This document shows, piece after piece, positions 12,568 to 55,016 of a DNA stretch of 55,016 nucleotides. Source of the stretch: a virus; the IMG/VR virus record IMGVR_UViG_3300020202_001036, positions 1-55,016 of that record. One strand, 5' to 3'. Below the pieces are notes generated by a model. That model was given only the letters and a program-made list of their open reading frames with translations, ran no database searches and was not told the origin of the DNA. The position numbers and the translations under genes are program-made. Each line of letters begins with the position of its first letter. Position 1 is the first letter of the stretch.

Positions 12568-12571
12568 CGCC

Positions 12572-13162: not shown

Positions 13163-13338
13163 CCAACGATCGATTCTCTTCCCTCGAGCGCGACCCCGAT
13201 GCGCGTCTGACCCGCGAGGAGATGCGCGAAGGGTGGCACTTCTGCACGGAGTTAGACCTTGGTCTGACGCAGGGCGAGCAGATCGATGGCGACGGGCGCT
13301 GCGCATGGTGCGGTTTTGACAAGCGGAGGGTGGCTTGA
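13159..13338 (+). CDS. Small hypothetical protein with CxxC
   Basis: This is a 59-residue product from GTG 13159, overlapping the endolysin stop (GTGA). The C-terminus has CAWCGF and the N-terminus is charged and helical. Its stop overlaps the TTG start of the sigma factor. No family is recognised; it could be a zinc-binding partner of its neighbour. Confidence 0.5.
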   Translation: MTNDRFSSLERDPDARLTREEMREGWHFCTELDLGLTQGEQIDGDGRCAWCGFDKRRVA

Positions 13339-13961
13339 AGAGCTCCAGCATCGTCAACGGCATCGACGTGACCGCCCACGGCGGCCTCATCGGGCGCTGC
13401 GTGCAGCACTACAAGCGATTCGTCGGCGGGTGCCTCGAATGGGAGGACCTGTTCCAGGCAGGCTGGCTCGGTGTGTACCACGCTGCTGAGCGCTTCGACC
13501 CCACACGGGGTTTCAAGTTTTCGACCTACGCGAACTGGTGGATTCGCGCCTTCATCCAGCGCGCCATCATGAACGAGCGGCGCACGGTGCGCGTGCCGGT
13601 TCATGCGCAGCAGAGCGCATTCGCACGCGGCGAGCGTCTGCATCTGGACGCGCTGTCACTCAACGCGCCGGTGAGTGCGGACCACCCAGAGGACACCTGG
13701 ATCGACCTGCTGCGAGCCGACAGCGACCCGGAGCGGGAGGCGATGGACAGTGACGCGGCCTCGCACATCGAGGCCGCCGTCGATGCGCTCCCAGACGTGA
13801 GCCGGCGCGCCATCAGAGGGCGTTTCTGGGGCGAGCACACGCTCAAGGAGATCGGCGACGATGTTGGCCTCTCGCGAGAGCGCATCCGCCAGCGCGAGGC
13901 TCAGGCGCTGGAACGGTTGGAGTTGAGACTCGCGACGCTGCAGCACGAGACGAGGCGATGA
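13335..13961 (+). CDS. Phage-encoded sigma-70 family RNA polymerase sigma factor
   Basis: This is a 208-residue sigma factor. Region 2 is clear at about 35-78: 'WEDLFQAGWLGVYHAAERFD', then 'RGFKFSTYANWWIRAFIQRA', which holds the -10 recognition and melting helix. Region 4 is clear at about 155-202: 'LPDVSRRAIRGRFW', then 'TLKEIGDDVGLSRERIRQRE', the -35-binding HTH. A reduced region 3 lies between. TTG 13335 overlaps the previous stop. It should redirect host RNA polymerase to phage promoters, most likely for late genes. Its position inside the late operon suggests positive feedback. The cognate promoter motif was not identified. Confidence 0.92.
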   Translation: MKSSSIVNGIDVTAHGGLIGRCVQHYKRFVGGCLEWEDLFQAGWLGVYHAAERFDPTRGFKFSTYANWWIRAFIQRAIMNERRTVRVPVHAQQSAFARGERLHLDALSLNAPVSADHPEDTWIDLLRADSDPEREAMDSDAASHIEAAVDALPDVSRRAIRGRFWGEHTLKEIGDDVGLSRERIRQREAQALERLELRLATLQHETRR

Positions 13962-20100: not shown

Positions 20101-22180
20101 GTCGATTATCGCGAAGATCAGCGCTGGAGAAAAGCTGGGAATCGCGGCTCTTGTTGGCTCTGCTGCTGTTGACGACGACGAGACCGGTGCGGCGCTTGCT
20201 AGCGCTGGTGGGCTGCTCGCTGGAAAGCGTCTGATGCGTGAGGCCGCTACCGTGCCCCCGAAAGGAAAAGCGCGACGCCCCGACGGGCCCATTGCCGCGC
20301 TTGATGCACGCGACGCCACACCCACGAACTTCTACCCGAACAGCAACGCGGCTCGGAACGAGTATGGTGAATCGATGCGCGCGTATCGTGAGGCGCAGCG
20401 CGCTGACAACCTGAGAGCAGGAGAACTCGAAGGCGAGTTGTCGGACCTGAAGAAAGCGGGGCTAGTCACCGGCGCAGCCGGAGCGCTGGCGCTCGACGAC
20501 GACGACGGCGGGGCTGCGATGGCGGGGGCTGGGGCTCTGGGTCTCGCTGGCCGGCGTCTTGGGATGTGGAAGATCGGTCGCGAGTTGGTGAATCTTGACA
20601 ACGTCGCAGACCCTATCGCAAAGCTTCGCGAAATGGGCGCGAAGCCCGCTCTTTTGGAACGTGTCGCGTCACGGCTCGATGCCGCAAGCCGCCCCATTGC
20701 AGAGACAGCGATCGAGACAGAGCAACACGCAGCTGTCGCAGCAAAAAACCAGGCGCTTTGGAGCGACGCTGAACGCGAAGCCATTAGCGACTATCAGGGC
20801 GAAGGATACAGAGACGTAAACGAGGCGCTGCGCTTCGGCGAGCGAGCGCCAGCAGAGATTATATCCGCGCTCGATAAGGCAGTGGCTGCAGGCAACGTCA
20901 CTCCGGGCATGATCTGGCGCGGCGTCGACTTGCCGGAAGCAGAGATCGAGCGCTTAAAGCAGAGTTCTCACGTGATGTCTCAGGGCATCTTGAGCGGAGC
21001 GACCAACGACGCGCGCGCCCGCGTGTTTTCTCCAGGCGAGTACGGCAACAAGCCAGTCCTATTTCGTATCGAGCAAAAGACGGGTGTTCCTGTAGAAGAG
21101 AGTGGCGAAGCTGAAGTGCTCATGCGCCCAGGAACGAAGTTCGAAGTCGTAGGGGTTGGGCGAGACCGCTACGAAGGCGGTCCGTACACGAAGAACGACA
21201 AGGATTGGAAGTACATCGACACAATCGATCTTCGCGAGGTCGGTCAGGTTCCGGATAAGAGCCGACGGTCGTTCATGCGAAAGCATGGCGGCAAGGTTGC
21301 GGCCGGCGGAATCGTTGGTCTGGGTGCCGGAACGCTCGCTGTAGACGACGCCCAGGCGGCAGAGTTGGAGGACTCTCCTGACGATCGCACGATCGCCGCC
21401 CAGCGCATCCTAAGCATCGACGACGCGGCGACACGCCGGATCCGCCACACGGCGCGCGTGCTCTCTGGTCTCGCCGAGCCGCCGTCGCCAGAGGGTCTAA
21501 CGACCGCGCTCGGGCGATTCGGCGCCGAGTACGACGACCCGCGCTCCGCCTTCGAGGAACGGAAGACGATCCTGCAGAAAGCCGAGATCGCGCCGGCGCT
21601 GGTCTACGACGTGATCGCGGCCACGTTCGGCGACGTCGCGCGCGTGAGCCCGGAGCTCTATCAGGCCGCGTCGGCGCGCCTGCTCGATGGGTTCCGCTAC
21701 ATGCGCGAAAACCTGCCGCCCGAGGTCAAGACGTCGATGCTCTACCCGACCGGGCTGCCACCGAGCGAGAGCGCGATGCGCGACTGGGCCACGCAGTGGA
21801 ACACAGTGATGGACCCTGAGTCTGTGCTCGATGACATCGACCGCGGCACGGTGACGCACTTGCAGATCGAGACGCTCGAAGGCGCTCACCCCGATACGTA
21901 CCAGCAGCTGCGCACCGAGATCATCGCCGAGGTCGGCGCGAACTTCGCCGACATCCCGACTTCGACCAAGCAACAGCTCGACATTCTGTTCCAGGCCGAT
22001 GGCTTGGCGGGGCCAATGTTCAGCAGCGCGGCCGCGGTCATGATCGGGGAAGCGAGCCGCGCCGCATCGAAGCGAAAGCAGCCGGGGCCCGCCGACACCG
22101 GCGTCAACGATATCGAGGCGGCGCGAAGCGCGAACGGGCTCGAAGCGATACGCAGCAGCGTCACAAACAGGGCAACATGA
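17183..22180 (+). CDS. Giant virion protein with ADP-ribosyltransferase-like domain
   Basis: This is a 1665-residue polyvalent-type protein and the largest gene here. Residues about 1190-1355 resemble an ART domain: helix 'REAISDYQGEGYRDVNEALR', catalytic Arg in IWRGVDL (R1246), a strand with SQGILSGATNDA (1266-1276), and an E-x-E in SGEAEVLMRPGTKFEVVGV (E1309, E1311). Four Gly/Ala-rich segments interrupted by acidic clusters (about 637-670, 985-1016, 1092-1126, 1368-1395) look like membrane-inserting hairpins. The rest is helical, and the C-terminus (after 1400) has no known motif. It likely enters the host with the DNA and modifies host proteins. It overlaps the portal start (ATGA). Confidence 0.7.
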   Translation: MAVLINKETGQAFEVSDDEAPQAAADMDLVPATPDQIEWLRKQREYEAKPVTERALESVQSYGEGLSQIGGKAALAVGGLAGLQPIQGREDALYRAPDVLERQERHPIAHALGVQTPALTLSGAVGGFAGMAAESAAVGLSDELVASTQEERDFSAGAAAEGAAVDLAFSALAHAATGVASRVGNLLLFGTGNTMARNIKRGLDESAGPVVPDDVRFEGPLLEAETRSARAAAAASPGMPPGPERDEMLRRAARDLNQQVETEGGDLFERTAATARESASVGGSDAVARRIDDFLTETTPAQTSWSADATRKLDQMRQALVAIGDEPAEAGVAARARETADEAIAAIDGAADSAEWFKASGKARDRLDAIADEIADSDLPEGGVVARAVEDARSYLEKSLADRALFGAAAEMDAGLRGAARDQIGAAVRASGGDLRAQLAAFVSADAAERVVMRAPLEQAIEGFEDLARAHERFGTARPRDIETLRENAASLRRALTLADDVGAATRSAPAPAAPKASPDSRAEPNFARAETLAGQIRQRAAAHAKRAGVQAAQRVVDYAAGPGRAVYDDAVSDALKGAIQTVGALGGLAAMGPPGFVAGWLGARSIGKKMAPKVGQQILDAAQRYVKTHGADTAGAALLAAAALGEGDDESGDTDALAASIGGLFFARRFAERALGAAGRGAKALGEGAYRASEAVTGAVDAATGKAAQAVGNVAYKAGRKVGEATGAGLDAVAKGAADEDLVKGAIRSGVRDPKRWLVRNTRGRIADKAAEYFGPRISGAAARWLEKRHGKAAQEIVNEAISETAAAGKRDVALLEQHSAQSAAMVEDVGAQIRAALNETPEQKARALEAFPQRIGGDAHAQRQLLTAAVDELADALGKVSDGTTAKVAIDFANAAKEAIINARTARDRFRIGMQLTETLVHHTAEVGDSEMAKVFGAYADKMWEAMGQRELWMGARELERETKRLAKKRESIIAKISAGEKLGIAALVGSAAVDDDETGAALASAGGLLAGKRLMREAATVPPKGKARRPDGPIAALDARDATPTNFYPNSNAARNEYGESMRAYREAQRADNLRAGELEGELSDLKKAGLVTGAAGALALDDDDGGAAMAGAGALGLAGRRLGMWKIGRELVNLDNVADPIAKLREMGAKPALLERVASRLDAASRPIAETAIETEQHAAVAAKNQALWSDAEREAISDYQGEGYRDVNEALRFGERAPAEIISALDKAVAAGNVTPGMIWRGVDLPEAEIERLKQSSHVMSQGILSGATNDARARVFSPGEYGNKPVLFRIEQKTGVPVEESGEAEVLMRPGTKFEVVGVGRDRYEGGPYTKNDKDWKYIDTIDLREVGQVPDKSRRSFMRKHGGKVAAGGIVGLGAGTLAVDDAQAAELEDSPDDRTIAAQRILSIDDAATRRIRHTARVLSGLAEPPSPEGLTTALGRFGAEYDDPRSAFEERKTILQKAEIAPALVYDVIAATFGDVARVSPELYQAASARLLDGFRYMRENLPPEVKTSMLYPTGLPPSESAMRDWATQWNTVMDPESVLDDIDRGTVTHLQIETLEGAHPDTYQQLRTEIIAEVGANFADIPTSTKQQLDILFQADGLAGPMFSSAAAVMIGEASRAASKRKQPGPADTGVNDIEAARSANGLEAIRSSVTNRAT

Positions 22181-24162
22181 CCGACAGCGCACAGAACTCC
22201 AAGCTCGCGAGAACGATCCAGGATTCGATCAAGAATCAAGACGCAGAGTGTTGGATGCTGCGAAAGAACCAAGTCGACGCTGCGCGCGACCTCGGCGACC
22301 TCGGTGAGCGAGCGATGATTGAGAATTGCTGGCGAGCGACCCGCGCCTATCGCTTCGCGTCCTTGTATGAGGGCTTTCGACTCACAAACCTGAGCAGCTG
22401 GGGCGCCGACCTCGACTGCCTGCAGGGCATCTTCCCCGGGCTCGAAGCGCCGGTAATCAAGAACCGATGCCGCTCGCTGGTGCGGGCCTTCATCAACAAG
22501 AGCTTCGCCAACGATTCGCCGCTGCCGCAGTTCATGACGAAGGGCGGCACGTTCGACCAGGTCGCCGCCGCCGAGGACCTCGACCAGGCCATCTGCGCCG
22601 AGTTCAAGGAGCCGCAGGGGCGCTTCTCGAACAAGGCCGAGATGGATCGGCATGGCGCGCTCATCGCGACCGCTGCGACTGGCCAGTACGCAGTCTTTTG
22701 CATCGACTACGACAACGCCACGAGACCGGAACTCGAGCTCGACGACACGCTGACGCTCGGCATCTACCGCACCCAGCAGTACGGCGCGATCCGCCACGTG
22801 GTGCGCACCGTGTGGATGCTGCCCGAAGAGGCGATTCGAAAGTTCGGCCTCAAGTTCCGCGACAAGATCTACGAGAACCTCGAGATGCGCGAGGGCAAGT
22901 TCGTTGCGGGCCAGGGTCTGAACCGCGGAACCATGCCCACCGCGAGCACGCTCACGTTGGCGCGTCGCGAGGTACGCATCGTGATGGGCTGGGCCGTCAG
23001 CGTTGGAGACGAGCCGGGGCGGCAGATGTTCGTGCTGAGAGACGGCACCGTGCTCCGTGACCGTGGCTACGACAAGCCTGCGCCCCCCATGGTGACGTGG
23101 GAGTACGAGCCCGAGATCGGCGGCGAGGGCGGGACGCCGCTCACCCAGCTCATCTACGTCCAGGCCATGTACCAGTCGCGCATCTTGCACGACGTCGACC
23201 ACGCGGAGCGCAACACGCCTCAGGTGGGGTGGGCCGTTCAAAAGGGCACGCAGGGTGCTAAGTCTGTCCAAGGGCAACTCGCGCAGTCGAAGGCGATACA
23301 GGTGTTCGAGATCGACGGACCGATCGAGGGCGCATTCAAGGTGTTCGAGGTCGCGAAGTTCTCCAAGGACTCACTCGCGCTCGAAGGCGTCTACGACCAG
23401 GCCCAGTTCGACGACACCGGCATCTCGCGCAACCACGCCACTGGCACGAAGGCAGCGGGCACGACGAGCGGCGTGCACGAGAGTCTCTCGGCGAGCTATT
23501 ACACCGAGTCGTTTGCCGATGCCGAGCGCCGATCCATCGAGATGCGCGCCGTCGGCGCGACCCGCATCATGGTCTGGGTCCTGCAGACGCTGGCAAAGCG
23601 CGGCTTCGAGCGCTGGGTCGGCGACAAGGCGTTCCGACGCAAGTTGCGCGGGGAAGATCTCGACCTCGACGAGAGCAAGTACATCCTCGAAATCCAGCCG
23701 GCGAGCGAGGAGAAAGACACGCCGAAAGGGCGGCTCCAGAAGGCCGAGAAGTGGATGGCGGATCCATCGGTGCCATTCACTGGGTCGGACATGGTCCAGA
23801 TGTTTCGGACCTACGACGACACGCGCATGGCCCAGCAGCTATACGAACTCGACGGGTGGGTCGAGGAGCAGATCGAACGCTACCGCAAAACGCCGCTCGC
23901 CGAGATGGCAAAGCGGGACTTCTACCAGCCACCAGAGCGCTCGATGCAGATGGATGGGCTAATGTCCGCGTTGCGGATCATGAACCTCGCCTATCTGCGC
24001 GCGAAGCAGCAGGGCATGCCGCGTCAGCGACTGGTCTTCTTCGAGAACTTTTGCAACGGCTGCATCGCGCTGATCCAAGAGGAGCAGCGGCGGCTCGCGT
24101 CGTTGCAGCAGCCCCCACCCGGCGCAGGAGCGCCACCACCCATGCCCGCACCGGCGGGATAA
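22177..24162 (+). CDS. Portal protein
   Basis: This is a 661-residue protein. Its length, position (before the scaffold and terminase) and layout fit a podoviral portal: an N-terminal clip/wing region with 'IKNRCRSLVRAFINKSFAND', a long crown/stem region ('IYVQAMYQSRILHDVDHAER'), the late helical part (RLQKAEKWMADPS), and a Pro-rich tail. It would form the dodecameric DNA entry vertex and dock the terminase. The start overlaps the giant virion gene (ATGA). No exact family match can be verified without a search, but no other gene in the window fits this role. Confidence 0.75.
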   Translation: MTDSAQNSKLARTIQDSIKNQDAECWMLRKNQVDAARDLGDLGERAMIENCWRATRAYRFASLYEGFRLTNLSSWGADLDCLQGIFPGLEAPVIKNRCRSLVRAFINKSFANDSPLPQFMTKGGTFDQVAAAEDLDQAICAEFKEPQGRFSNKAEMDRHGALIATAATGQYAVFCIDYDNATRPELELDDTLTLGIYRTQQYGAIRHVVRTVWMLPEEAIRKFGLKFRDKIYENLEMREGKFVAGQGLNRGTMPTASTLTLARREVRIVMGWAVSVGDEPGRQMFVLRDGTVLRDRGYDKPAPPMVTWEYEPEIGGEGGTPLTQLIYVQAMYQSRILHDVDHAERNTPQVGWAVQKGTQGAKSVQGQLAQSKAIQVFEIDGPIEGAFKVFEVAKFSKDSLALEGVYDQAQFDDTGISRNHATGTKAAGTTSGVHESLSASYYTESFADAERRSIEMRAVGATRIMVWVLQTLAKRGFERWVGDKAFRRKLRGEDLDLDESKYILEIQPASEEKDTPKGRLQKAEKWMADPSVPFTGSDMVQMFRTYDDTRMAQQLYELDGWVEEQIERYRKTPLAEMAKRDFYQPPERSMQMDGLMSALRIMNLAYLRAKQQGMPRQRLVFFENFCNGCIALIQEEQRRLASLQQPPPGAGAPPPMPAPAG

Positions 24163-29525: not shown

Positions 29526-29538
29526 ACGGGAGCTTGGT
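29522..29538 (+). other. Proposed 5' exon of the coat gene (17 nt)
   Basis: GTG 29522 overlaps the preceding stop (GTGA), the start style used throughout this phage, after AAGAGG. It encodes M-N-G-S-L plus two bases of the next codon, ending in a U as group I 5' exons do. Joined to base 30530 it continues in frame into coat exon 2 as MNGSLVTNFLNIS. This is an inference; the exact junction needs RNA data. Confidence 0.4.
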
Positions 29539-30095
29539 TGTTCGTCTACGTCATCACCAATTCCGTCAACGGCAAGGTTTACGTCGGCAAGACGATCGCT
29601 CCCGAGAAGCGATGGGCACAGCACCAGTCCGTTGCGATGGCTGGGAAGGCAGGGCCACTGTATGACGCGATCCGGGAGGAAGGCGCTGCCGCATTCGAGG
29701 TTTCGGTAGTTGAGGAATGCGGCTCGGAAGACGAGGCCTTCGATGCCGAGAGGGTATGGATCGACCGGCTAGCGGCGACTGACCCGGACCACGGGTTCAA
29801 CCGATGCATTGGCGGCAACGGCCCGTCTGCGCTGGGCGATCATCGGTACCGCCACATCACGGCTGAGACGTGCTGGGAGCTTTACTCCGCGGGCGTCGCG
29901 GCCCCTGAGATCGCCAGGCGTCTTGGTGTCGCCTCGTACCAGCCAATCTACAGGCTGCTGAAGCGCGCTGGGTACCCCGTGAGGAACGCCGGTCGTGTCA
30001 GGAACGCTGCGGCTGGGCACGTCCTTCGTGACGCTCGGGATTCTCACTCGCCGGAGTGTCGCGCCGCCCTTGACAGCGCGCGGGGCTCCTCATAA
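29538..30095 (+). CDS. GIY-YIG homing endonuclease, intron-encoded
   Basis: This is a 185-residue protein. Residues 2-18 (FVYVITNSVNGKVYVGK) are the GIY-YIG core (YVI then VYVGKT), with Arg25 (EKRW) and Glu in FEVSVVEEC of the nuclease fold. The C-terminal half (TAETCWELYSAGVAAPEIAR, then RLGVASYQPIYRLLKRAGYP) is an HTH DNA-binding tail as in phage homing enzymes. The start is TTG at 29538, at or within a base of the proposed 5' splice site. It would cut intron-less coat genes and spread the intron. It interrupts the coat gene, so it is not a virion gene. Confidence 0.85.
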   Translation: MFVYVITNSVNGKVYVGKTIAPEKRWAQHQSVAMAGKAGPLYDAIREEGAAAFEVSVVEECGSEDEAFDAERVWIDRLAATDPDHGFNRCIGGNGPSALGDHRYRHITAETCWELYSAGVAAPEIARRLGVASYQPIYRLLKRAGYPVRNAGRVRNAAAGHVLRDARDSHSPECRAALDSARGSS

Positions 30096-30529
30096 GATTT
30101 TGCTAGTCTACCGGTGACTCTAAACCCGGCCGCGTCCTCGGGCCTTTGGGCGCGGGAGCCACGCTGTGGTCTCCGAAACCGAGCGCTGTGCAACGGAGCA
30201 TCCCCGTTGTTCCCTCGATTCGGAGGTCTGTCCCAGTGTCGGACGTTACCTTCTTCAAGGTGGAGACCTGAGAGGCGAAAGCACTCAGCGCAAACCCTTC
30301 TGTATGCTGGAACACCCGGTGGATCCGACGGTACGGGCGCAGTTGCATCCGTGAAAATCCGAGCGGTGCGGGCAATCAGCAGGCAACCGTAAAGTGGGAG
30401 CCTCAGAGGCCAAACGAAGGGCACCCTACGGGGTGATGATATGGTCCGAACACCACGGCGACGTGGTGAGCTGGCGGGAACAGAAACTAGCCAGCCTTCG
30501 CTGAACCAGCGATGCAACAGTTGTAAGTG
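29539..30529 (+). ncRNA. Group I self-splicing intron in the coat gene
   Basis: The catalytic core lies in the last about 160 nt. An R-like segment GCAATCAGCAGGCAACC sits at 30372-30388. P7 pairs GGCC (30408-30411) with GGTC (30443-30446, in GATATGGTCCG). P8 is CACCC/GGGTG (30422-30426, 30431-30435) with a tacg loop. P9 is CACCAC/GTGGTG (30451-30456, 30463-30468). Two further hairpins follow at 30471-30494 and 30499-30511. Proposed ends are 29538/29539 (after U) and 30529/30530 (after G). P1 could not be assigned with confidence. About 434 nt without ORF (30096-30529) plus the endonuclease ORF make up the insert. Confidence 0.8.
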
Positions 30530-31799
30530 CACCAATTTCCTCAATATTTCCTACGTCGACGGTGACCTCGCGCACCAGGCCAGCGTCCGCGCGAACCCGT
30601 CGATCAAGCTGTTCGACATCAAGGAAGCGGGCGGTAGCAGCGTCGAGTCACGCTTCATGCTCCGCGGCGCTGCGGGCATGTCGGGCAATCTCACGGACGC
30701 CCAGGCCATCGCGGCGCAGAACAAGAACGGCCGGCACTACCGCTGGCAGGTTCCGTTCGGCAAGACGCGCGGCAGCTTCCGGATCCCCTACGAAGACATC
30801 ATCCAGTCGAAGCTGAGCGAGGCCGCGGAGGCCCAGGCGCTCGAGCTCGAAATGGAGAAGGGTCTCGCCGAGTGCGGGAGCAAGCTCGTGCAGCTGCTCT
30901 TCGGGCGCTCTGGCCTCGCCGGCGGCTTCGGCGAGTGGGAAGAGACCGCGAGCGGCGACTACCCCTCGTTCTGCATCCGCTTCGCCGACCCCAGCGACGC
31001 GCGGAACTTCCAGCCCGGTGACAACGTGGTCATCGCGGCGGGCACGGGCGAGAGCGCTCAGAGCCTCGTCGGTGACGTCGGCTACGTGCTCGACTCGGAC
31101 GTCGAGGATGGCTTCATTCGCCTCGCTGCGCTGAGTGACCTCGAGACGGCGGCGAACCCAGGTGGCTGGGTCGACGACACGAACTACTACGTGTTCAACC
31201 TCGGCCTGCACGGCAACGGCGACCAGGAAGAGGTCATCGTGCCGCTCGAGGCCTACCTCCCCGCGTCGCGCGCCAACGACACGTTCCTGGGCGTGCCGCG
31301 CATCGACTCGGCGTCGCTCTCGGGCGCTCGCCTCTCGGCGACCGAGGAAACCGGCTCGATCGTGCAGCGGATCAAGCGGCTCATCGCGAAGATGCGCGGT
31401 CGCTACACCGACATCGCGAAGGGCGCGAACAAGGTCGTGCTGAACGCCGAGGACTTCGGCGCCGCGGACGAAGACCTGACCGCGCAGCTGATGCGCTCGC
31501 CGGCGACGAAGACCGAGGACGGCTTCACCCAGATCACGATCAACACCGCCAACGGCGCGACGGACCTGATCTCGGAGCCCTACAAGAACAAGGGCTCGTT
31601 CTTCGTGCTCTCGCCCGCATCGCTGAAGCTCTACTCGGCGCTCGGCGGAGGCAAGCTGCTCGACCTGGTGAAGTTCCCGGGCGGCCAGGTCACGCGCGTG
31701 ATGGAGGGCTCGAACGACTTCGAGGTCCGAACCTTCTCCAGCCTCGCCAACACCGTCGGCGCACCCTTCGCGCACGGGCGCGGGTCGACGACCTCCTGA
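30530..31799 (+). CDS. Major capsid (coat) protein, 3' exon
   Basis: Exon 2 of the coat gene; with exon 1 the product would be about 428 residues. 'TNFLNISYVDGDLAHQASVR' then 'ANPSIKLFDIKEAGG' has the N-terminal arrangement of podoviral coat proteins (short helix, strand, then N-P-x-x-x-L or similar). Blocks such as 'HYRWQVPFGKTRGSFRIPYE' and 'PYKNKGSFFVLSPASLKLYS' fit the HK97-type coat fold. The in-frame ATG at 30441 lies inside the intron core (P7 strand), so a protein starting there would carry about 30 spurious residues. Confidence 0.8.
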
Positions 31800-37795: not shown

Positions 37796-37984
37796 ATGGC
37801 TCAGCGCAAACGCACCCGCCGCACACAGGAAGAGTACACGATGCCGATCAACGACGCGCTCGCGCTGCTGCTGCCTCAGCATGTGCCGCAGGACGGTGAC
37901 ACCTGGACGCTATTCGTGCGTGACGGCACCCTGGAGATGACGCTGACGCAAGCGCCAGAGGTGCTGACGGGCAGTTCACGGTAG
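37796..37984 (+). CDS. Small hypothetical protein after tail fibre
   Basis: This is a 62-residue product (MAQRKRTRRTQEEYT...), with a basic N-terminus and a 'DTWTLFVRDGTLEMTLTQ' beta C-terminus. It has GGAG before ATG 37796, and an in-frame TTG at 37787 is also possible. It ends convergently, overlapping the lipoprotein stop at 37976. It may be a fibre chaperone or adaptor. Function is unknown. Confidence 0.5.
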   Translation: MAQRKRTRRTQEEYTMPINDALALLLPQHVPQDGDTWTLFVRDGTLEMTLTQAPEVLTGSSR

Positions 37985-38473
37985 CGCTTCGCCGGTGCCT
38001 GGATCGACGGTGTTGCAGTCGAGCGCGGTCACGTCGACGAGGCCAACTTCGCCGTACGTTCGCACCACCGCGTTCTCAGGATCGACGATGAGACTGAGCG
38101 ATAGCGGAGCCCCATCCGCGTCCGTCCCGCCACGCGGGTCGAGCGTCGACCAATCGGTCAGAAAGCAAAGCCCGCCCGTATAGTAGGCGATGTCGACGAC
38201 ACGATCGCCGCGTCGCTCGACAGAGCAAATCCCGGAAACGTTGCCGTCGGAAAATGTGACGTGCTCGGCCTCCACGGACACGCGCACGTCGCCGCTCGAG
38301 TAGGAGCCGGCGCATTTGACGCTTGCGGTGACACGGACGCCATCGGCGCCGGGTGGGCCCGGGGCACCAGGTGGGCCGTCCGCGCCACGCTCACCGGGCG
38401 CGCCGGGGGCTCCAGTCTCGCCTCGCTCGCCAGAGCATCCAGCCACCATCAAAACGAGCAAAAACCGCCTCAC
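37976..38473 (-). CDS. Lipoprotein with collagen-like repeat
   Basis: This is a 165-residue product from GTG 38473. MRRFLLVLMVAGC is a lipoprotein signal with lipobox MVAGC. Residues 16-44 are G-x-y triplets (GETGAPGAPGERGADGPPG...), the collagen-like pattern used by bacterial and phage triple-helical stalks. A globular C-terminus with Cys pairs (SGICSVERRG, GGLCFLTDW) follows. It is transcribed opposite to the late operon. A surface-exposed trimeric lipoprotein expressed from the prophage is the likely picture. Confidence 0.7.
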   Translation of the reverse strand: MRRFLLVLMVAGCSGERGETGAPGAPGERGADGPPGAPGPPGADGVRVTASVKCAGSYSSGDVRVSVEAEHVTFSDGNVSGICSVERRGDRVVDIAYYTGGLCFLTDWSTLDPRGGTDADGAPLSLSLIVDPENAVVRTYGEVGLVDVTALDCNTVDPGTGEALP

Positions 38474-38576
38474 CCGCGGCACTACGGACGCCGCACCGGC
38501 GTCTTTAGGCCCTCCGCCTCCGCGCCTAGTCCGATGGCCGGTTGCCTGCCAGCCGGTTCCGCGCTTCGCTCCGCGG
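38474..38576. promoter_or_regulatory. 103-bp divergent promoter region
   Basis: It separates the collagen-like lipoprotein (minus) and a plus-strand gene at 38577. A short inverted element CCGGttgcctgccagCCGG is visible at about 38537-38555. No clear -10 or -35 pairs are seen, so the promoter is inferred from gene orientation only. Confidence 0.35.
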
Positions 38577-38903
38577 ATGCCTGCCGACACCCACGGCCCA
38601 TTCCCCTTCGAGGCGGTTCGCGACCTGCTCGGGATCGCCCGAGCGCTCTACCGTGCCGCGGACGGTGAGCCCCAGCGCCAGGCCGAGCTGCAGCACATCG
38701 GGACGGGGCTGCGCGAGGCCCTCGAACTGGCGCGCAGCAGTGGCGAGGGCACGATGGGGCGCCGTGCCGCCTGGGCCAAGGCGGAGCGCGCCGCCAAGGC
38801 GCTCGGGGAGTTGGTCGCCGACGGATGCACCGTCGAGCCGCTGGTGCACGCCACGGCGGCGCGTCTGGCGCGTGGCCGGCGCACACGGGCGCGCAATCAG
38901 TGA
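38577..38903 (+). CDS. Helical hypothetical protein
   Basis: This is a 108-residue product starting at ATG 38577 (MPADTHGPFPFEAVRDLL...). It is mainly alpha-helical with Ala/Arg/Glu ('LGIARALYRAADGEPQRQAE', 'GRRAAWAKAERAAKALGELV') and a basic tail. I do not recognise it. It may belong to the accessory (lysogenic) cargo group together with the following two genes. Confidence 0.5.
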   Translation: MPADTHGPFPFEAVRDLLGIARALYRAADGEPQRQAELQHIGTGLREALELARSSGEGTMGRRAAWAKAERAAKALGELVADGCTVEPLVHATAARLARGRRTRARNQ

Positions 38904-39296: not shown

Positions 39297-39632
39297 ATGA
39301 AGATGGCACTTATCCTGCTAGCGATCGGGTGCGGGTCGGCTGCGGTCGCAGCGCCCAAATCTACCGAGTCCAGACCCGCTGAGAAAGGCTCGCCGTCGAT
39401 GCTGGTGCTCGACAACGGGCCGCCGCCTTCACCAGCGAGCCTCGTTGCGCCTGGCGAGGACCTGGCCGAGTCGCAGGCGAGGCTCGATGAAGACCTGCGG
39501 CTAAACCCGCCTGGCCCCGCGCCAGCGACCTTCTGCGACGCGCCCGAGGACGACCCGCTGGCGCCGGCCGAGCCCGCAAAGACTTCGGCTCGGGCCCGCG
39601 CCAAGCCGAAGTCCGCGGTGTTACCTCACTGA
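39297..39632 (+). CDS. Short lipoprotein carrying one arm of an inverted repeat
   Basis: This is a 111-residue product. MKMALILLAIGCGSAAVAAP is a signal peptide with possible lipobox AIGC. After residue 42 it has PPSPASLVAPGEDLAESQAR, then LDEDLRLNPPGPAP, shared residue for residue with the protease gene on the opposite strand. The C-terminus (EDDPLAPAEPAKTSARARAK) is basic and low complexity. It overlaps the protease stop by 7 bp (39626-39632). Its present C-terminus has no catalytic motif, so on its own it would be a short surface peptide. Confidence 0.65.
   Translation: MKMALILLAIGCGSAAVAAPKSTESRPAEKGSPSMLVLDNGPPPSPASLVAPGEDLAESQARLDEDLRLNPPGPAPATFCDAPEDDPLAPAEPAKTSARARAKPKSAVLPH
39423..39525. 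repeat. 103-bp perfect inverted repeat, left arm
   Basis: Identical over 103 bp to the reverse complement of 40672-40774. Both arms are coding, in the same reading frame, just after signal sequences of two convergent lipoprotein genes. Recombination between them would invert 39526-40671 and exchange the C-terminal parts of both genes without breaking the frame. Confidence 0.9.
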
Positions 39633-40897
39633 CCGGTCGGGATGAAGCAGCTCAGGTCGTTGTCGTGGATGTCGAGCGCATCGCCGCTCGCATCCATGTC
39701 GATGTCGTTGATGCTCTCGCGATGAAGCTGCGAAATACCCATCGACGTAGCCACCGTCTGCGCGCATGTCAGGCCGGCACGCATGACACCGAAGGTGATG
39801 TCGGCGTATTGGTCGTGGGCGAACGAGAACCCGTGCATCATCTCGTGCAACAGGATGTTGAAGATGCCTGAGCGACGAGGCAGGACTTGAGTCGTGCACG
39901 ACAGGAAATTGAACAACCCTGACCAATTAACGCCGATGTCGACCTTGCTATAGGTGTACATCATGTCGGGGCGTTGAGTGTACTGCACGGGAGGAAAGGT
40001 GCTGCCTGGAAGGCCAGCGGTTTCGCATTCGTCGGTCCACTCGACGATCTCGCCCTGCACAGCGGTGGCGTAGCGCAGCATCAATGGGCCAGCAGCGCTG
40101 AAACGTGCTGCAGCGGAGGCCGGCACGGTCGAGTCGCATTTGACGATGACCTTCGCTTCCGAGACGTTGGTGGTTCTCGGGAAAGTCAGCAGCGTGTTGT
40201 TTTCGAGGTACGTGAACATCGCTTGGATCGCGATCCGAAAGTCTTCACGCTGGCTGCTGTTGTTGGGGCATGCCGTTTCGTCATAGTACCAGCGCCACCG
40301 ACGTCCCGTGGTGCTCAGGTGGATGTAGGGCATCAGGCACGGGCGCCACTCGTTCGTCGTGAGATCTGGGCGCTGGAACAGAGACCCGCAGCGAGCGCCT
40401 GGGGTGCGAAGCGAGTTGGAGTCCAGAAAGTCCACGTGACTATCGATCTGGATGTCCAAAGCCTGGATGTGCCAGGCGTCGTCGCAATCGAGCCCGAAGT
40501 GGCTGCAGTGATCGGGCTTCCCGGGGGCATCGTTGATGCCGTCCTGGAACGCGAGTTCGCCGTGCAGCGCCCAGCCCGCCAGTGCGGGGAAAGAGTCGTT
40601 TGCCTTCTCGACTTCCCCCTCTTCTAGGGGCGGGTCAGCGTAGGGGTCATCTTCGTGCGTCCAGATCCTCTCTGGCGCGGGGCCAGGCGGGTTTAGCCGC
40701 AGGTCTTCATCGAGCCTCGCCTGCGACTCGGCCAGGTCCTCGCCAGGCGCAACGAGGCTCGCTGGTGAAGGCGGTAGCAGGATCTCATTGAGATCTGGGC
40801 GCTCCAGCACCGGCGGCTGCTCCGGTGAGTCGAGCAGCGTCTCGTCGTTGCTGCTGCAGCCCACCGTGAGCGCGAGCATCATCCAAATTCGCTTCAT
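39626..40897 (-). CDS. Lipoprotein metzincin-like metalloprotease
   Basis: This is a 423-residue product. MKRIWMMLALTVGC is a lipoprotein signal with lipobox TVGC. Residues 42-75 are encoded by the inverted repeat. The catalytic site is His351-Glu-Met-Met-His355...His361-Asp (LLHEMMHGFSFAHDQ), the HExxHxxxxxH metzincin pattern, and Met372 in FGVMRAG is a likely Met-turn. Several Cys pairs suggest an extracytoplasmic enzyme. GAAAGGAAC precedes ATG 40897. It is not a virion enzyme by position and probably is expressed by the lysogen to act on neighbours, hosts' competitors or surface proteins. The substrate is unknown. Confidence 0.8.
   Translation of the reverse strand: MKRIWMMLALTVGCSSNDETLLDSPEQPPVLERPDLNEILLPPSPASLVAPGEDLAESQARLDEDLRLNPPGPAPERIWTHEDDPYADPPLEEGEVEKANDSFPALAGWALHGELAFQDGINDAPGKPDHCSHFGLDCDDAWHIQALDIQIDSHVDFLDSNSLRTPGARCGSLFQRPDLTTNEWRPCLMPYIHLSTTGRRWRWYYDETACPNNSSQREDFRIAIQAMFTYLENNTLLTFPRTTNVSEAKVIVKCDSTVPASAAARFSAAGPLMLRYATAVQGEIVEWTDECETAGLPGSTFPPVQYTQRPDMMYTYSKVDIGVNWSGLFNFLSCTTQVLPRRSGIFNILLHEMMHGFSFAHDQYADITFGVMRAGLTCAQTVATSMGISQLHRESINDIDMDASGDALDIHDNDLSCFIPTGQ
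40672..40774. repeat. 103-bp perfect inverted repeat, right arm
   Basis: Partner of 39423-39525. Flanking bases diverge at once on both sides (cta versus gcg before the shared ccgcc, and agagg versus cgacc after), so the boundary is sharp. The spacer between arms is 1146 bp. Confidence 0.9.
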
Positions 40898-42747: not shown

Positions 42748-43265
42748 GGCTTCGCCTCCCGGCGCCCGCTGGGCGGAACCCAGGTCTGCGGCGGAATCAC
42801 GGCGCGCTGGCACGTGTGGTTGGTCTCGATGCCTTCGAGGCAGCCCTTGCAGGTGCGCTGGCACGGGTGGTTGCTCTCGAATCCTTCGGCGCACCCGATG
42901 CACTCGGGCTGCTTCACCTTCCGCTCCGCTTTCTCGCGCTCGGTCGGGGCTGGGGCGGTGGTCTGCAGGAAGGCGCGGGTGTCGCTGACAACAGAAGCAC
43001 TCCGACCGCCCACGTTGCGCGGCGGTGTGACGGCCATCCACCTGCCCAGCAACTCGGTCGCGGTGGAGAGGCGGGACTTGAGCGAACCGCACAGGTCGCG
43101 CATTCCAGCATCGGCGTCGTCTCCGTCCTGCAGCTCCGCTCGCAATCGCTCCAGCAACTCGGTCGTGGCGGAGAGGCGGGTGTTGGTGTCCCATAGGTCT
43201 CGGGCGAGACCTTGACACGTAGTCACCAACTCTTCTCTAGACATACTATCGAACTTAGTCGACAT
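42744..43265 (-). CDS. Cysteine-repeat protein with helical N-terminus
   Basis: This is a 173-residue product. A helical N-terminus ('LSATTELLERLRAELQDGDD') is followed by APAPTEREKAERK, the module shared with the gene at 7256-7975. Two tandem CxxC...C repeats follow: CIGCAEGFESNHPC, then CKGCLEGIETNHTC, a likely pair of zinc knuckles. ATG 43265 overlaps the previous coding sequence by 11 bp; ATG 43244 is an alternative. Function is unknown. Confidence 0.55.
   Translation of the reverse strand: MSTKFDSMSREELVTTCQGLARDLWDTNTRLSATTELLERLRAELQDGDDADAGMRDLCGSLKSRLSTATELLGRWMAVTPPRNVGGRSASVVSDTRAFLQTTAPAPTEREKAERKVKQPECIGCAEGFESNHPCQRTCKGCLEGIETNHTCQRAVIPPQTWVPPSGRREAKP
42922..42959. repeat. 38-bp dispersed inverted repeat, copy B
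   Basis: Reverse complement of 7928-7965, perfect over 38 bp, inside the minus-strand gene at 42744-43265. See copy A. Confidence 0.85.
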
Positions 43266-44823
43266 CGCGCCGCCTTCCGCAACCCTCGTTCGGCCGATGC
43301 GTGTAACAGCACTTGTCACACAGCTTCTGTTGGTTTGCCTCCAACCGCTCCACCTCCGTGCACAGGGCCTCGCAATCGCGACAGGGTTTCTCCAAGGCTT
43401 CGTTCGCAGCGTCGAGCAGTCCGGTGATGTGCTCCACCTCCGCGCGCAGTGCCTCCTGCGTCTCCAGCGACTCACCCAGCGCTTCGTACGCCTTGTGCAG
43501 CTCCGCGCGCAGGGCCGCGGCTTTGGATTCGGCCGCACTGCGCGTTGCCAGCAGCTCTTTATTTACCTGCCGCAGGCGTTCGTTCTGTTTAAACAATCCC
43601 TGCGCGTTCTCCAGCTCAATCTGCTGATGTGCCAAGTCGCGCTCGTTCAGCGCTTGCTCGTGTGCCCGCTCCGCCGCCTCGCACTTGGCTTTCCACTCGG
43701 CGCACTCGGATTCGGCGCGGTCGAATTGGTCGTGCAATGCCTTCAGATGAGCGTTTGCATCTGCTAGGTCCGCTTCCGCCGCTTCCGCCCGATTCATGAG
43801 AGTCGCTTGACCCATCGCCTCCAGGGCCTGCTCCAGCTCTTGTTCCGCGCACTGACGCGCCTCGTAGTGTACCTTCGCGCCAGCCTCCGCCGCCTCGCAC
43901 TTGGCCTTGACCTCGGCGAGCTCGGATTCGGCGCGCTGCAGGTCCTCATCTGCCGCTGCCATGTAACTCTGATACTGGTCTGCGGCCTGGTGGTCTTTGA
44001 GGACTAACCTGCGAACAGCCTCTTCTCGGTCTTTGGCGTACCGCTCCGCCGCATCGGCGCGGGTGTTGGCTGCATGCAGCGACTCGGACACAGCGGCTAG
44101 GTCCTCCGACTGCATCCGGTTCATCGCCTCCAACTCCGCCACCCGGGCATTGGCTGCGTCCAACTCATCCTGAAGGCGGGTCACCTCGCAACCCAGCCCG
44201 ATGCTGCGCGCCTCCAACTCCACCACCCGGGCGTTGGCTGCGTCCAAGAGAGACTCGGCCGCGCGGGCGTGTGATTCCAGCGCTCCGCACTCCGCCTCCA
44301 GCTCCGTCACCCGGGCGTCGCCCAGCGCCGTGATGTCTTCTCGGTCGCGCTCCAACTCCGCCACCCGGGCGTTTGCTGCGGCGAGGTCGCAGTGCAGCTT
44401 GGTCGGCCCCGTCTGGTCGGGCGCGCCATGGTATTCGTCGATGCGGGCCTTGGTCGGGCTCGGCCCCGTGTGCTTGGGTGAGCCGGAAGCCGGTGCGGCG
44501 GCGAGGGCGGCCTCGAAAGCGTCACACGTCGTCTTGGGCAGGTGGGCGAATGCGCGCGTTTCGTACCAGGCCCGCACCCGGTCGAGCGCCGCGGCGAGGG
44601 CTTCGCACTTGGCGTTTGCGGCGTCCAATTCGTCTCGCGTGTCGAGCCAGCGTGCGTTGGCTGCGTTTCGTTCTTTTTCTGCGGTCGCTATCTCCGCGGC
44701 CTGGGCGTCGCACTTGGCGGTCGCAGCGTCCAGCAGACGGAGGGCTTTGGCCTCCAACTGGTAGTCACCATCGCCGTCCGCCAGCGCTGCGCGCTCCTCG
44801 TCCGTCAGTTTCTCCGTGGTCAT
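43255..44823 (-). CDS. Long coiled-coil protein with repeat units
   Basis: This is a 522-residue, nearly wholly helical protein. The unit A-A-N-A-R-V-x-E-L-E recurs at least three times (residues about 145-155, 185-195, 208-218), with further 'AESELAEVKAKCEAAE' style units. A C-terminal CDKCCYTHRPNEGC cluster is present. Neighbouring DNA around the repeat unit is also close to that at about 7.5 kb in the plus-strand gene 7256-7975. It might scaffold the recombination/replication complex or form filaments. No family is recognised. It is coupled on both sides. Confidence 0.6.
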   Translation of the reverse strand: MTTEKLTDEERAALADGDGDYQLEAKALRLLDAATAKCDAQAAEIATAEKERNAANARWLDTRDELDAANAKCEALAAALDRVRAWYETRAFAHLPKTTCDAFEAALAAAPASGSPKHTGPSPTKARIDEYHGAPDQTGPTKLHCDLAAANARVAELERDREDITALGDARVTELEAECGALESHARAAESLLDAANARVVELEARSIGLGCEVTRLQDELDAANARVAELEAMNRMQSEDLAAVSESLHAANTRADAAERYAKDREEAVRRLVLKDHQAADQYQSYMAAADEDLQRAESELAEVKAKCEAAEAGAKVHYEARQCAEQELEQALEAMGQATLMNRAEAAEADLADANAHLKALHDQFDRAESECAEWKAKCEAAERAHEQALNERDLAHQQIELENAQGLFKQNERLRQVNKELLATRSAAESKAAALRAELHKAYEALGESLETQEALRAEVEHITGLLDAANEALEKPCRDCEALCTEVERLEANQQKLCDKCCYTHRPNEGCGRRRDVD

Positions 44824-45046: not shown

Positions 45047-46174
45047 TCAGCCGTCCTCGCCCGGTTCGCGCGCGATCATCGTGTGCGCGGGCCGCCTGAT
45101 GTTGTTTGGTGAGTTGGCGAGGTATCCGGCGCACCAGGCCAAGGCCTGAGACCTCTCGGTCTCGCTCCACGCCTCCACCGTTTCGCGCGCATCGAAATCC
45201 GGATCGTCCCACGCCGGGTCTATCTCCCGCAGCATCTGCACGAGGCGCCCGCCGTCCACACGCTTGGGCAGGTCCGCGGGGGCGGCGGCTGGCGCGGCAG
45301 CGGGCGGAGGGGGTGTCACCTCGCTGCTCTGCGCTGGGGCCGCCGCCCCCTTGGATGCAACGGGGCCATCATTCCCCGTTGACTGCTTTTTCTGCCCGCG
45401 CATCGCGACGCGGCGCCCGTCGGGTGTGCCCGCCGGGACGGGGCTCGGAGTCGGCTCGGCCGGGATGTCGCTCAGCAGCCCCACGATCTCGGGCGCGAAC
45501 GACTCGGCTTGTGGTTGGTCGCGCTCGGTGGCCTCGTCTACGTCCTGGGCGAGCGCCATCTCAGCGCTCTTGGGGAGCCAAGTGAAGAGCCGTCGTATGG
45601 CCGTCTTTTGCGCCATCGCGTTGTAGTCGTTGACCCAGGGCCCGTTGTTCTTGGCCATGGATCGCGCGCGGTAGCTCTCGACGCGCTCCCGGGTCAGCAC
45701 GGTAAAGACTGGCTCACCATCCGTCAGGCGAGCGACGCCATACACGTGCGTGAGCGGCCCCGGCTCGTCGCAGGGCCTGTGCTTCAGCCTCGGCTCCAGG
45801 CCGAGCTCATACTCGAACAGGTCCCCCTTGAACACAGGATGAGCGTAGATGGCCTTCACCATGCCGCTCCGGCGCGCCAGGTCCATCATGCCCTGATACC
45901 CAATGATCAGAGTGCAAACGTCATTGTATGGAACCAAGTAGGCCTGGCCCAGCGGAGTGTTGACCTCCAGCCCGAGTTGGCTCGCCTGCAACAGGCTCCC
46001 CAGGAACGATTGCGGCGTGCACTGGGCCAGCTTGTGGTTGGTTCGCACCGCGGTTAGCGCAATGCGCGCAATGCGCTCCGGCGAGATGTGGTTTGGCAGC
46101 GCCTGCGCGATTGCGGGCTTCATCTTTTCGAGCAGCGCGACCAGTTCCCCGCCGCGTTTCGCCAAGTCACTCAT
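45047..46174 (-). CDS. recT: RecT-family single-strand annealing protein
   Basis: This is a 375-residue product. 'ERIARIALTAVRTNHKLAQC' with 'SFLGSLLQASQLGLEVNTPL', 'AYLVPYNDVCTLIIGYQGMM', and 'RLTDGEPVFTVLTRERVES' are signature blocks of the RecT/Red-beta-like annealase family. The C-terminal 130 residues are Pro/Ala-rich and end with an acidic/aromatic segment (DGGRLVQMLREIDPAWDDPD). It anneals single strands in phage recombination. It pairs with the exonuclease encoded just upstream. AAGGGAACCA precedes ATG 46174. An HNH homing endonuclease gene lies between them, overlapping by 8 bp. Confidence 0.9.
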   Translation of the reverse strand: MSDLAKRGGELVALLEKMKPAIAQALPNHISPERIARIALTAVRTNHKLAQCTPQSFLGSLLQASQLGLEVNTPLGQAYLVPYNDVCTLIIGYQGMMDLARRSGMVKAIYAHPVFKGDLFEYELGLEPRLKHRPCDEPGPLTHVYGVARLTDGEPVFTVLTRERVESYRARSMAKNNGPWVNDYNAMAQKTAIRRLFTWLPKSAEMALAQDVDEATERDQPQAESFAPEIVGLLSDIPAEPTPSPVPAGTPDGRRVAMRGQKKQSTGNDGPVASKGAAAPAQSSEVTPPPPAAAPAAAPADLPKRVDGGRLVQMLREIDPAWDDPDFDARETVEAWSETERSQALAWCAGYLANSPNNIRRPAHTMIAREPGEDG

Positions 46175-46646
46175 TTGGTTCCCTTTCATTCGGTGCCGCG
46201 AATGGTCCGAAGTGTTCGATCGCTGCCGCGTCATACGCGCGCGCAGCATCAGATTCGTCTTTGAAGTAGCCCAAATGGATGCGGGCTCCGTTGACCTTGA
46301 TGGTGGCGCGCCAGCCGTTGTGATGTTGGCTCTTGGACACGCCCTTGAAGCGCGACGTTTTGTTCGGCCGCTTGCGAACCATGTTCTGGCTGTTCTGTCT
46401 CTTGGTTGCCAGGCGGATGTTCTCGCGCCGATTGTCCAAGCCGTCGCCGTTGATGTGATCCACGAACAAGTGTTTCGGGGCGCACACGATCTGTCGGTGC
46501 ATCCAAACGATTCCATCGCTCGATCGGCGAAGCGCGTATGCGCGCTCGCCGTGAACCTGGACGCACCACTTCCACCGCCTCAATATCCGCCAGTCGTCGT
46601 CATCAACGACAGCGATGTACCCTTGGGTGAGAGGTATTGCTTTCAC
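46167..46646 (-). CDS. HNH-AP2 homing endonuclease
   Basis: This is a 159-residue product from GTG 46646 (GTGA overlap). The HNH core is 'VWMHRQIVCAPKHLFVDHIN' then 'GDGLDNRRENIRLAT', giving H-R and D-H-x-N plus the N-R-x-x-N-I tail. It is followed by an AP2-type DNA-binding domain ('TSRFKGVSKSQHHNGWRATI', 'GYFKDESDAARAYDAAAIEH'). It is a free-standing homing enzyme inserted between the exonuclease and RecT without breaking the translation chain. It is a mobile-element passenger rather than a recombination factor. Confidence 0.88.
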   Translation of the reverse strand: MKAIPLTQGYIAVVDDDDWRILRRWKWCVQVHGERAYALRRSSDGIVWMHRQIVCAPKHLFVDHINGDGLDNRRENIRLATKRQNSQNMVRKRPNKTSRFKGVSKSQHHNGWRATIKVNGARIHLGYFKDESDAARAYDAAAIEHFGPFAAPNEREPNE

Positions 46647-47788
46647 GCGCGCCTCTGAACCATCTTCTGGATCTCACGCACCTGAATGGCGCCCGCCGCC
46701 TCCAGTTTCGCTGTGAGCTGTCGCTTCTCCGCCGCAGCCTTGCCCTTCGGGGCCCGCTCGGCGACCACGTTTTCGGCCTTCGATGCGGTCATTTCGATGC
46801 ACGCGGCCATGTCATCATCGCTGAATCCCGCATCCTGCAGGACCGGGAACGCCTTGATCGGATCAAGGTGGCGTCGCGGCTCCGTGACGATCGTCAGCCT
46901 GCGCCGACCGTCGCTGATCTCGCCCCCGTTCCTTATCACGTCGGCCTTCAGCGCGTCGAGCACGCGGTCGATCAATTTCGATGCAACACGAGCTTTCTCC
47001 ACGAGATCGATCTTCGCCTCGTTGGTCCACGTCGCGATCGTCTCGCCATCCTCGGCGTAGCCGACCAGGTCACGGTCCGTGACGATCGCGAAGTCGCGAC
47101 GCATCAGCGCGTTCGCGGCTGGGCACTCGTGTGAGCGGTCGCAATGCGCGCAGTGCGGACCGGGGCGGTACTCACCTGACCATGCGACGATCTCGTCGTC
47201 GATGCGCTGGCGCCAGGTGTCGAGCTCGGTGCGCTGCATGCTGTACCGCTCAATCTCCTGGTCGCGAATCCAAAGCACAGAGGCCTCGGCCCACAGCGCG
47301 GCGCGGTCGTCGAGCAGCGCGAGCGCGGCGTATCCGAGCAGCTGTTCACGGAATGACTTATCGACGCGGCCCCCTTTCCAGTCACCGACGTGCACACCGA
47401 CGGGCCCGCGCCCGAGGATGTCGGCGTGCCCGGTCAGGATCCAGGCGTCGTCTTCGTGTTCGAGTTCAATCTCGGTGAGTGGCTCGGGGAAGCACTCGAG
47501 CACTCGCTTGTCCGACTCGGGAAGGTTCGATTCCCAGAGTTTCACACCCTGCGCGATGAGAATGCGCAGGTCCTTTTCTCCCACGCCGTGTTGGCGCGCG
47601 AGCGCGGGGATGCCGTCCCAGTCGGGCCAACCGCGCTCGACCAGCGTGGCCAATCCGGCGTGCGCGGCCGTGCCGAGTTCCGCGACATCGCTCGTGTCGT
47701 TGATCGGAAGTGTGCTCGGGCGCACTGAGCCCGGGCAGGTGAACGCGAGCGGAAGGGCAGAGCACCTCAACCGTAGCTTCTCATTCAT
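46643..47788 (-). CDS. Cas4/RecB-like PD-(D/E)XK exonuclease (DUF2800-like)
   Basis: This is a 381-residue product. The start 'MNEKLRLRCSALPLAFTCPG' matches the DUF2800/Cas4 phage exonuclease opening. The catalytic pieces are GHADI (Asp) and HVGDWKGG (D-x-K) after 'WILTGHADILGRG'. A Cys cluster (CAHCDRSHECP) later suggests an iron-sulfur or zinc site as in Cas4. GGAGG lies 9 nt before ATG 47788. It should resect DNA ends for RecT. Confidence 0.85.
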   Translation of the reverse strand: MNEKLRLRCSALPLAFTCPGSVRPSTLPINDTSDVAELGTAAHAGLATLVERGWPDWDGIPALARQHGVGEKDLRILIAQGVKLWESNLPESDKRVLECFPEPLTEIELEHEDDAWILTGHADILGRGPVGVHVGDWKGGRVDKSFREQLLGYAALALLDDRAALWAEASVLWIRDQEIERYSMQRTELDTWRQRIDDEIVAWSGEYRPGPHCAHCDRSHECPAANALMRRDFAIVTDRDLVGYAEDGETIATWTNEAKIDLVEKARVASKLIDRVLDALKADVIRNGGEISDGRRRLTIVTEPRRHLDPIKAFPVLQDAGFSDDDMAACIEMTASKAENVVAERAPKGKAAAEKRQLTAKLEAAGAIQVREIQKMVQRRA

Positions 47789-47897
47789 CGAGGTCACCCT
47801 CCAAAATCTGTCGCGCCAAGCCCTCGGCGAGCAGCACCAGGGGCCAGCAAAAGATACTGAGCCCGAGCAGTACGATGCCGATGGCGAGAGCGGTCAT
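47781..47897 (-). CDS. Very small membrane protein (38 residues)
   Basis: It reads MTALAIGIVLLGLSIFCWPL... with one transmembrane helix and a short charged tail. It overlaps the exonuclease start by 8 bp (stop 47781, ATG 47788) and the upstream gene by ATGA. It is too short for standard gene finders but coupled on both sides, which supports it. It is possibly a host-exclusion or regulatory membrane peptide. Confidence 0.55.
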   Translation of the reverse strand: MTALAIGIVLLGLSIFCWPLVLLAEGLARQILEGDLDE

Positions 47898-54213: not shown

Positions 54214-55016
54214 CGTATGACCTGTGCTTTCTCGAGGCCGGTCACGCCGGCATTGGGTTGGTTGGGGACGTCACGCCGATGGGGGCCCGCCCGCGCATGC
54301 CGCTTGGCGCTGTCGGTCTCGTTCCACGTGCGCCACTTGGGGAATTGGCGCCGGATGTAGTTCCGCAGCTCGCGGGCGAAGATGCCGCGTTGGCCCCCGA
54401 TGGGGCCGCGCTTCAGGTCGTTGAAGCGGTCGTCGATGGTGATCGGCGGGACGCCGGCGGCGATCGCCTCGGAGCGGAGCTCGTCGTCGAGCTCGTAGTC
54501 CACAGGAATCTCTTTGAGGACCGCTGACGAGGTGTCGGGCGCAGCGGATGGCGCCTCATGGTGCAACGACGTTGCATCGGTGCGGGCGCGCTCAGTGGTA
54601 GTAGAGGGAGGGGAGGGGAGGGGAGGGGAGGGGACGTTTTCAGGGTCCGATCTGGTCGGGCGGACACTGATCGGCTCCTGATTGGTCACTGACGCGGTCA
54701 GACGCTTTCTATCTTCGTAATCTCGTTGAGCTTTGGCCTTGCGTTCGAGCTCTTGCTCGACCTTCTCCCGGCTTGGATTGCGCTTGAGGTAGCCGACGAT
54801 CACGAGCTCGTCGCCGTCTCGGCGCGCCCTCGTCGAGGGCTCGACGAGGCCTCGACGGACCCCTGACGAGTCCTCGGCGGGGTCATACCAGGCCACCAAC
54901 CTTGCCTCGACGAGGGCGCTGAGTGCCTTCGCCCTGGTCTTGCTCCCGTAGAGGCGAGCGACCTCTTCGACCATGTCTCCCGGGACCCTGCCGTCGCTGA
55001 GTCGACGCGAACTCCA
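54210..55016 (-). CDS. Phage replication initiation protein, C-terminal part (begins at 246 on the circle)
   Basis: This is the continuation of the gene that starts at 246. The part from 55016 to 54210 gives the remaining residues of the 304-residue protein. The N-terminal winged-helix continues here ('DMVEEVARLYGSKTRAKALS', 'RDGDELVIVGYLKRNPSREK'), then a coiled segment, a Pro-rich linker, and a C-terminal domain ('AIAAGVPPITIDDRFNDLKR', 'ARELRNYIRRQFPKWRTWNE') as in DnaD/DnaT-like phage replication proteins that bind the helicase loader. It is coupled to the loader by ATGA. On its own the window-internal ATG at 54974 is not the true start. Confidence 0.82.
   Translation of the reverse strand, partial: WSSRRLSDGRVPGDMVEEVARLYGSKTRAKALSALVEARLVAWYDPAEDSSGVRRGLVEPSTRARRDGDELVIVGYLKRNPSREKVEQELERKAKAQRDYEDRKRLTASVTNQEPISVRPTRSDPENVPSPPLPSPPSTTTERARTDATSLHHEAPSAAPDTSSAVLKEIPVDYELDDELRSEAIAAGVPPITIDDRFNDLKRGPIGGQRGIFARELRNYIRRQFPKWRTWNETDSAKRHARAGPHRRDVPNQPNAGVTGLEKAQVIR
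54879..55016. repeat. Terminal direct repeat, right copy
   Basis: Same 138 bp as 1-138, one mismatch (54890 a, 12 c). The right copy encodes Trp in the replication protein where the left has Gly. Confidence 0.9.

Follow-up and report, generated by a model that had tools for sequence, protein, structure and literature searches.

An identical inverted repeat within two convergent lipoprotein genes of a phage, one encoding a protease-like body

Results

Two convergent lipoprotein genes share a linker as a perfect inverted repeat

In the 55,016-nucleotide stretch of viral DNA analyzed here (the window), two convergent genes with lipoprotein-type starts carry the same 103-bp sequence as a perfect inverted repeat. 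We hold, with moderate confidence, that these genes belong to a lipoprotein cargo locus of fast turnover and recently exchanged this linker by recombination, and that the segment between the two copies may be inverted occasionally and in an unprogrammed manner. The first gene (39297-39632, plus strand) encodes a small lipoprotein-like product of 111 aa, comprising a signal peptide with the lipobox LAIGC, a linker that bears the repeat, and a 35-residue non-catalytic tail. The second gene (39626-40897, minus strand; 423 aa) has the lipobox LTVGC and the same linker, followed by a zinc-protease-like body with the motif HEMMHGFSFAHD and a downstream GVM; its start was taken as the ATG at 40897, with a longer GTG start at 41038 likewise open. 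At their 3′ ends the two ORFs run into each other, sharing 7 bp (39626-39632). The N-terminal signals of both, MKMALILLAIGC and MKRIWMMLALTVGC, end in a lipobox Cys and were called by regular expression and by eye only.

The left arm of the repeat (39423-39525, plus strand) was found to be the reverse complement of the right arm (40672-40774, minus strand) at 103 of 103 bases, in line with the preliminary description of this DNA, and the peptide PPSPASLVAPGEDLAESQARLDEDLRLNPPGPAP is encoded by each arm. The arms stand in codon frame 0 of both ORFs, 42 residues into the plus product and 41 residues into the minus product, and the earlier placement of the repeat in a shared frame behind the two signal peptides was thus borne out. 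The exact match ends at both edges, with no extra base; in a gapped blastn alignment, similarity extended about 31 bases inward, to 39556/40644, at 92.5% identity overall. Between the arms lies a segment of 1146 bp (39526-40671) whose sole content is the two C-terminal bodies in a tail-to-tail arrangement. When this segment was inverted in silico, the plus ORF became a 424-aa ORF with the protease body at its end (stop at 40571), and the minus ORF became a 110-aa ORF with the short tail at its end (stop at 40565). Both chimeras were intact, as predicted by the preliminary description, which had held that inversion would break no frame and would move the protease body to the plus start and the short tail to the minus start. 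In silico, inversion is productive in both orientations and shifts the protease body between starts on opposite strands.

The coding score of the minus ORF (from 41038) was 86.6, and that of the plus ORF (from 39261) was weak but positive, at 9.6. An SD-like duplex of -6.0 kcal/mol was found upstream of the plus start, and AAAGGA lies 5′ of the minus start ATG at 40897. The idea that one of the starts is "off" for want of a ribosome site was rejected, the duplex energies being -6.0 and -4.9 kcal/mol. No promoter-like site was recognized on either strand in a search for sigma-70-type sites. A phage sigma-70-like factor is encoded at 13335-13961 (plus strand), with Pfam regions 2 and 4 above cut-off. 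Neither lipoprotein gene had a PHROG match. The locus sits where the rightward structural gene block meets the leftward replication block; an adjoining ORF (37976-38590), on the minus strand inside the plus-strand block, has collagen-like Gly-X-Y sequence and a signal resembling one with a lipobox.

Extent, rarity and origin of the repeat

The 103-bp repeat is the longest in the window apart from a 138-bp terminal direct repeat. The next-longest exact inverted match in the record, between coiled-coil genes, is 40 bp, and in 20 simulated first-order Markov genomes of equal length the longest exact inverted match was 15-24 bp; by these comparisons, the repeat is a genuine feature of the record and is not explained by chance. 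When an arm 30-mer was searched for among viral contigs, no other contig matched. The coiled-coil genes (7178-7975, plus strand; 42922-44823, minus strand) share several inverted matches of at most 40 bp exact, so sequence shared across strands is not unique to the arms in this phage. The terminal direct repeat (1-138 and 54879-55016) has one mismatch, and a record with such a repeat may be a complete genome, circularly closed or terminally redundant.

Given the peptide alone and the codon usage of this phage, the probability that all arm codons agree is about 8e-15. Identity that includes synonymous sites thus argues for recent DNA copying and not for constraint at the protein level. Because 103 bp do not make up a whole number of codons, plain insertion of the linker into an ORF would shift the frame, and replacement or exchange is therefore likelier. 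The arm and the plus-gene tail each have a GC content of 72%; the protease body has 60%, and the signal region of the minus gene 61%. This composition hints that the linker was copied from the plus gene to the minus gene, a direction made less certain by the fact that a Pro/Ala linker is GC-rich in any case. We also considered the arms as the core of longer, diverged paralogues, but the case was weak: similarity of the inner flanks reached a P of about 0.02, and the outer flanks gave no alignment. With homology outside the arms this weak, the two genes may not be paralogues at all.

The minus-strand body is zincin-like

Metzincins follow the consensus HExxHxxGxxH, and they carry Gly where the zinc motif of the minus-strand body, HEMMHGFSFAHD, has Ser. 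The GVM downstream is a possible Met-turn. No match to this body was found in Pfam, NCBIfam or PHROG, and its best match among PDB sequences was at chance level; a single-sequence AlphaFold2 model had a mean pLDDT of 34.5 and was not interpretable. The metzincin-like assignment made previously finds no sequence support in these four libraries. We regard the body as zincin-like and a likely protease, "metzincin-like" by motif alone.

Exact-peptide searches returned no relatives: viral contigs were searched with the protease, the plus lipoprotein and the terminase, and genome contigs with the protease and with the product of 22177-24162. A tblastn search of phages and plasmids with the protease gave nothing of note. 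The 1665-aa product of 17183-22180 (plus strand) weakly matched an Alt-like ADP-ribosyltransferase (PHROG 802, E 6.5e-07). Another small lipoprotein, encoded at 1188-1661 (minus strand), also bears a zinc-protease-like motif, HEAGHYCKDGHTKTGLMAA; it had no family match above cut-off.

Related phages carry varied lipoprotein cargo at the same site

With the capsid-position protein (30441-31799), six related records were found, at 46-92% identity, and an alignment-based scan gave the same six; a RecT-based scan gave one distant contig only. In the window, a GIY-YIG homing-endonuclease-like ORF (29538-30095, plus strand) lies between the terminase and this capsid-position gene. One of the six records (L006) is an 11-kb fragment that ends short of the locus. 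In the examined stretches of the six records, neither the 103-bp repeat nor relatives of the two genes were found, and a search for the protease over the whole related records, run with no positive control, gave no match. Related phages had been put forward as a place where both orientations might be seen; they lent no support to a dedicated switch, and since the repeat is missing from the relatives found, the arrangement is not one that the group conserves.

The closest relative (L005, 92% capsid identity) has zincin-like genes on both strands of its locus. After a tail-fibre-like gene come an ORF on the minus strand that contains HELGH (10297-10836) and, on the plus strand, genes for a lipoprotein (11449-12324) and for a zincin lipoprotein with the motif HELGHLVGFPHE (12360-13094). 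The product of the last gene gave sub-threshold matches to Reprolysin_5 and to a myxobacterial metalloprotease family, and it had no sequence relation to the window protease past the motif. The product of the short minus-strand ORF is possibly resembled by that of 1188-1661 in the window (blastp E 0.014). Two further records, about 98% alike, have in common a 329-aa minus-strand lipoprotein at the convergence point of the gene blocks, and neither is inverted there with respect to the other; in L009 and L010, no lipoprotein was recognized at this point. Lipoproteins thus occur at the convergence point in three of the six related records, or in four of six phages when the window is counted and L006 excluded. 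In these four phages the convergence point is a cargo site for lipoproteins, sometimes protease-like and in either orientation; of the phages compared, the window alone has the inverted repeat. No record with the opposite orientation was found; because the searches may not span the records nearest the window, the missing inverted sister record is weak evidence.

Recombination functions in the record

A tyrosine integrase (2299-3966, minus strand; PHROG 1, E 6e-15; Phage_integrase below cut-off) is the sole site-specific recombinase seen in the record and lies about 36 kb from the locus in window coordinates. Adjoining the integrase region is a gene for a Mom-like DNA modification protein (748-1212, minus strand; PHROG 1384, E 2e-37). 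When the whole record was searched for a serine recombinase with PF00239, no match was obtained; the same search was positive in 10 of 14 control genomes. A recombinase core site within the arm was also sought and not found, and no recombination-site-like dyad in the arm rose above background (86% of random phage windows equalled or beat the best one). The family-library scans covered the small ORFs of the record in part, and a recombinase may be present unrecognized in the phage or may be supplied by the host.

The phage encodes a RecT-like single-strand annealing protein (45047-46516, minus strand; PHROG 148, E 4e-86), 45-50% identical to mycobacteriophage RecT, and an adjoining exonuclease (46643-47797, minus strand; PHROG 69, E 2e-20). 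The general homologous recombination of a cell can invert DNA between inverted repeats (PMC4272514), and it would be the simplest agent of exchange between the arms, with RecT as a candidate helper.

Discussion

A selected switch and a recent exchange of linkers would each account for the position of the arms and for frames that stay open. We favor the exchange, as neither an invertase nor a recombination site was found, relatives showed no conservation, and no record of the second orientation turned up. According to this explanation, recombination, either homologous or by template switching, would have copied the 103-bp linker behind the signal peptide in frame from one gene into its partner. 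The resulting arms should be long enough for general recombination, whether by the host RecA or by the phage RecT and exonuclease. A crossover between them would invert the 1146-bp segment, carrying the protease body from the leftward to the rightward start and the short tail the opposite way. Such inversion would be expected at low, unprogrammed frequency, as a by-product of module swapping and not as a regulated switch.

A true phase-variable switch is possible but, in our judgment, somewhat unlikely. Here the 1146-bp segment would invert frequently, and the protease would be produced from either the leftward or the rightward start, with a short non-catalytic lipoprotein made from the other. 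Both ORFs do stay open in either orientation, the arms are at matching positions behind the signal peptides, the segment holds only the two C-terminal bodies, and the two starts lie in opposing gene blocks. Moreover, Mycoplasma and Ureaplasma are known to invert lipoprotein genes that have their 5′ parts in common (PMC3047005), and chimera-making prophage inversion is known in e14 (PMC12529663). The repeat, the frame, the lipoprotein starts and the productive flip have survived from the phase-variation-like arrangement proposed in the preliminary description. The switch itself, however, is opposed by the negative searches for an invertase gene and for a site-like dyad in the arm, by the absence of conservation in relatives and of any opposite-orientation record among those found, and by the failure to recognize a sigma-70-type promoter-like site on either strand. 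In a variant that we think quite doubtful, a switch without a dedicated invertase would move the membrane-anchored protease between the ends of the replication-side and structural blocks, and so change its timing in the phage cycle.

The low coding score of the plus ORF relative to the minus ORF (9.6 vs 86.6), its shortness and its absence from relatives would be expected if the linker had been copied once into a fixed, non-functional inverted duplication, with no useful recombination between the arms and with the plus ORF little expressed or not at all; the coiled-coil genes (7178-7975 and 43255-44823) are likewise similar across strands. We nevertheless judge this improbable, as a separate lipobox signal precedes the arm in frame in the plus ORF, an SD-like stretch lies upstream of this ORF, and arms with zero differences are still substrates for recombination. 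It is very improbable that the assembler created one arm copy or the orientation of the segment, even though the source is an IMG/VR virus contig, the one mismatch in the 138-bp end repeat reveals some variation or error at the ends, and a 103-bp repeat can exceed some assembly k-mers and leave orientation arbitrary: each arm runs both ways into differing, open, in-frame coding sequence, repeat collapse would drop a copy and not add one, and an amplification chimera does not usually take the shape of two 103-bp copies set 1.1 kb apart, with all four flanks unique.

Even without inversion, the locus marks a site of changing lipoprotein and zinc-protease cargo among close relatives in this phage group. 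If the segment does invert, DNA inversion in phages, familiar from tail fibres, would extend to a surface protease, and an in-frame repeat together with general recombination would be able to swap modules of cargo proteins in phages. A limited search of open-licence full texts gave no account of a lipoprotein protease that a phage carries on a segment flanked by inverted repeats.

Several known systems resemble this arrangement in part. The phage tail-fibre cassettes, namely Gin of Mu, Cin of P1 and the Pin/P segment of e14 (PMC8987985, PMC12529663, PMC4272514), also consist of a phage segment between inverted repeats, whose flip fuses a constant start to alternative ends. They employ a serine invertase and switch tail-fibre genes, whereas the present locus has lipoproteins, one of them protease-like, and no serine recombinase was found in the record; serine recombinase, dyad crossover sites and tail-fibre ends were the three features tested, and none of them was found. 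At inverting hsdS loci, inverted repeats lie within coding sequence and the frame is kept after the flip, as at the phage locus. There, in the type I restriction specificity genes of the pneumococcal locus with PsrA, a tyrosine recombinase inverts the DNA and target recognition changes (PMC7096588); no recombinase is assigned to the phage locus. A pair known from Listeria (PMC8235301) likewise sets a zinc protease of phage origin alongside a lipoprotein: a phage-derived metzincin, which raises sensitivity to phage lysis, and a TIMP-like lipoprotein. The Listeria metzincin is a secreted enzyme that cuts the lipoprotein paired with it, whereas both products here are predicted lipoproteins; the abstract mentions no inverted repeat, and the likeness is one of description.

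The mollicute lipoprotein loci, vsa of Mycoplasma pulmonis and mba with UU172 of Ureaplasma parvum, in which inversion by site-specific recombination has been shown (PMC3047005), involve lipoprotein or surface genes with an inverted, shared coding segment near the 5′ end. Inversion there joins the promoter, RBS and start of one gene to the body of the other. The phage locus differs in being a single pair known from assembled sequence alone, and it has in common with the mollicute loci an identical, inverted, 5′-proximal coding segment and a frame that is kept both ways in silico.
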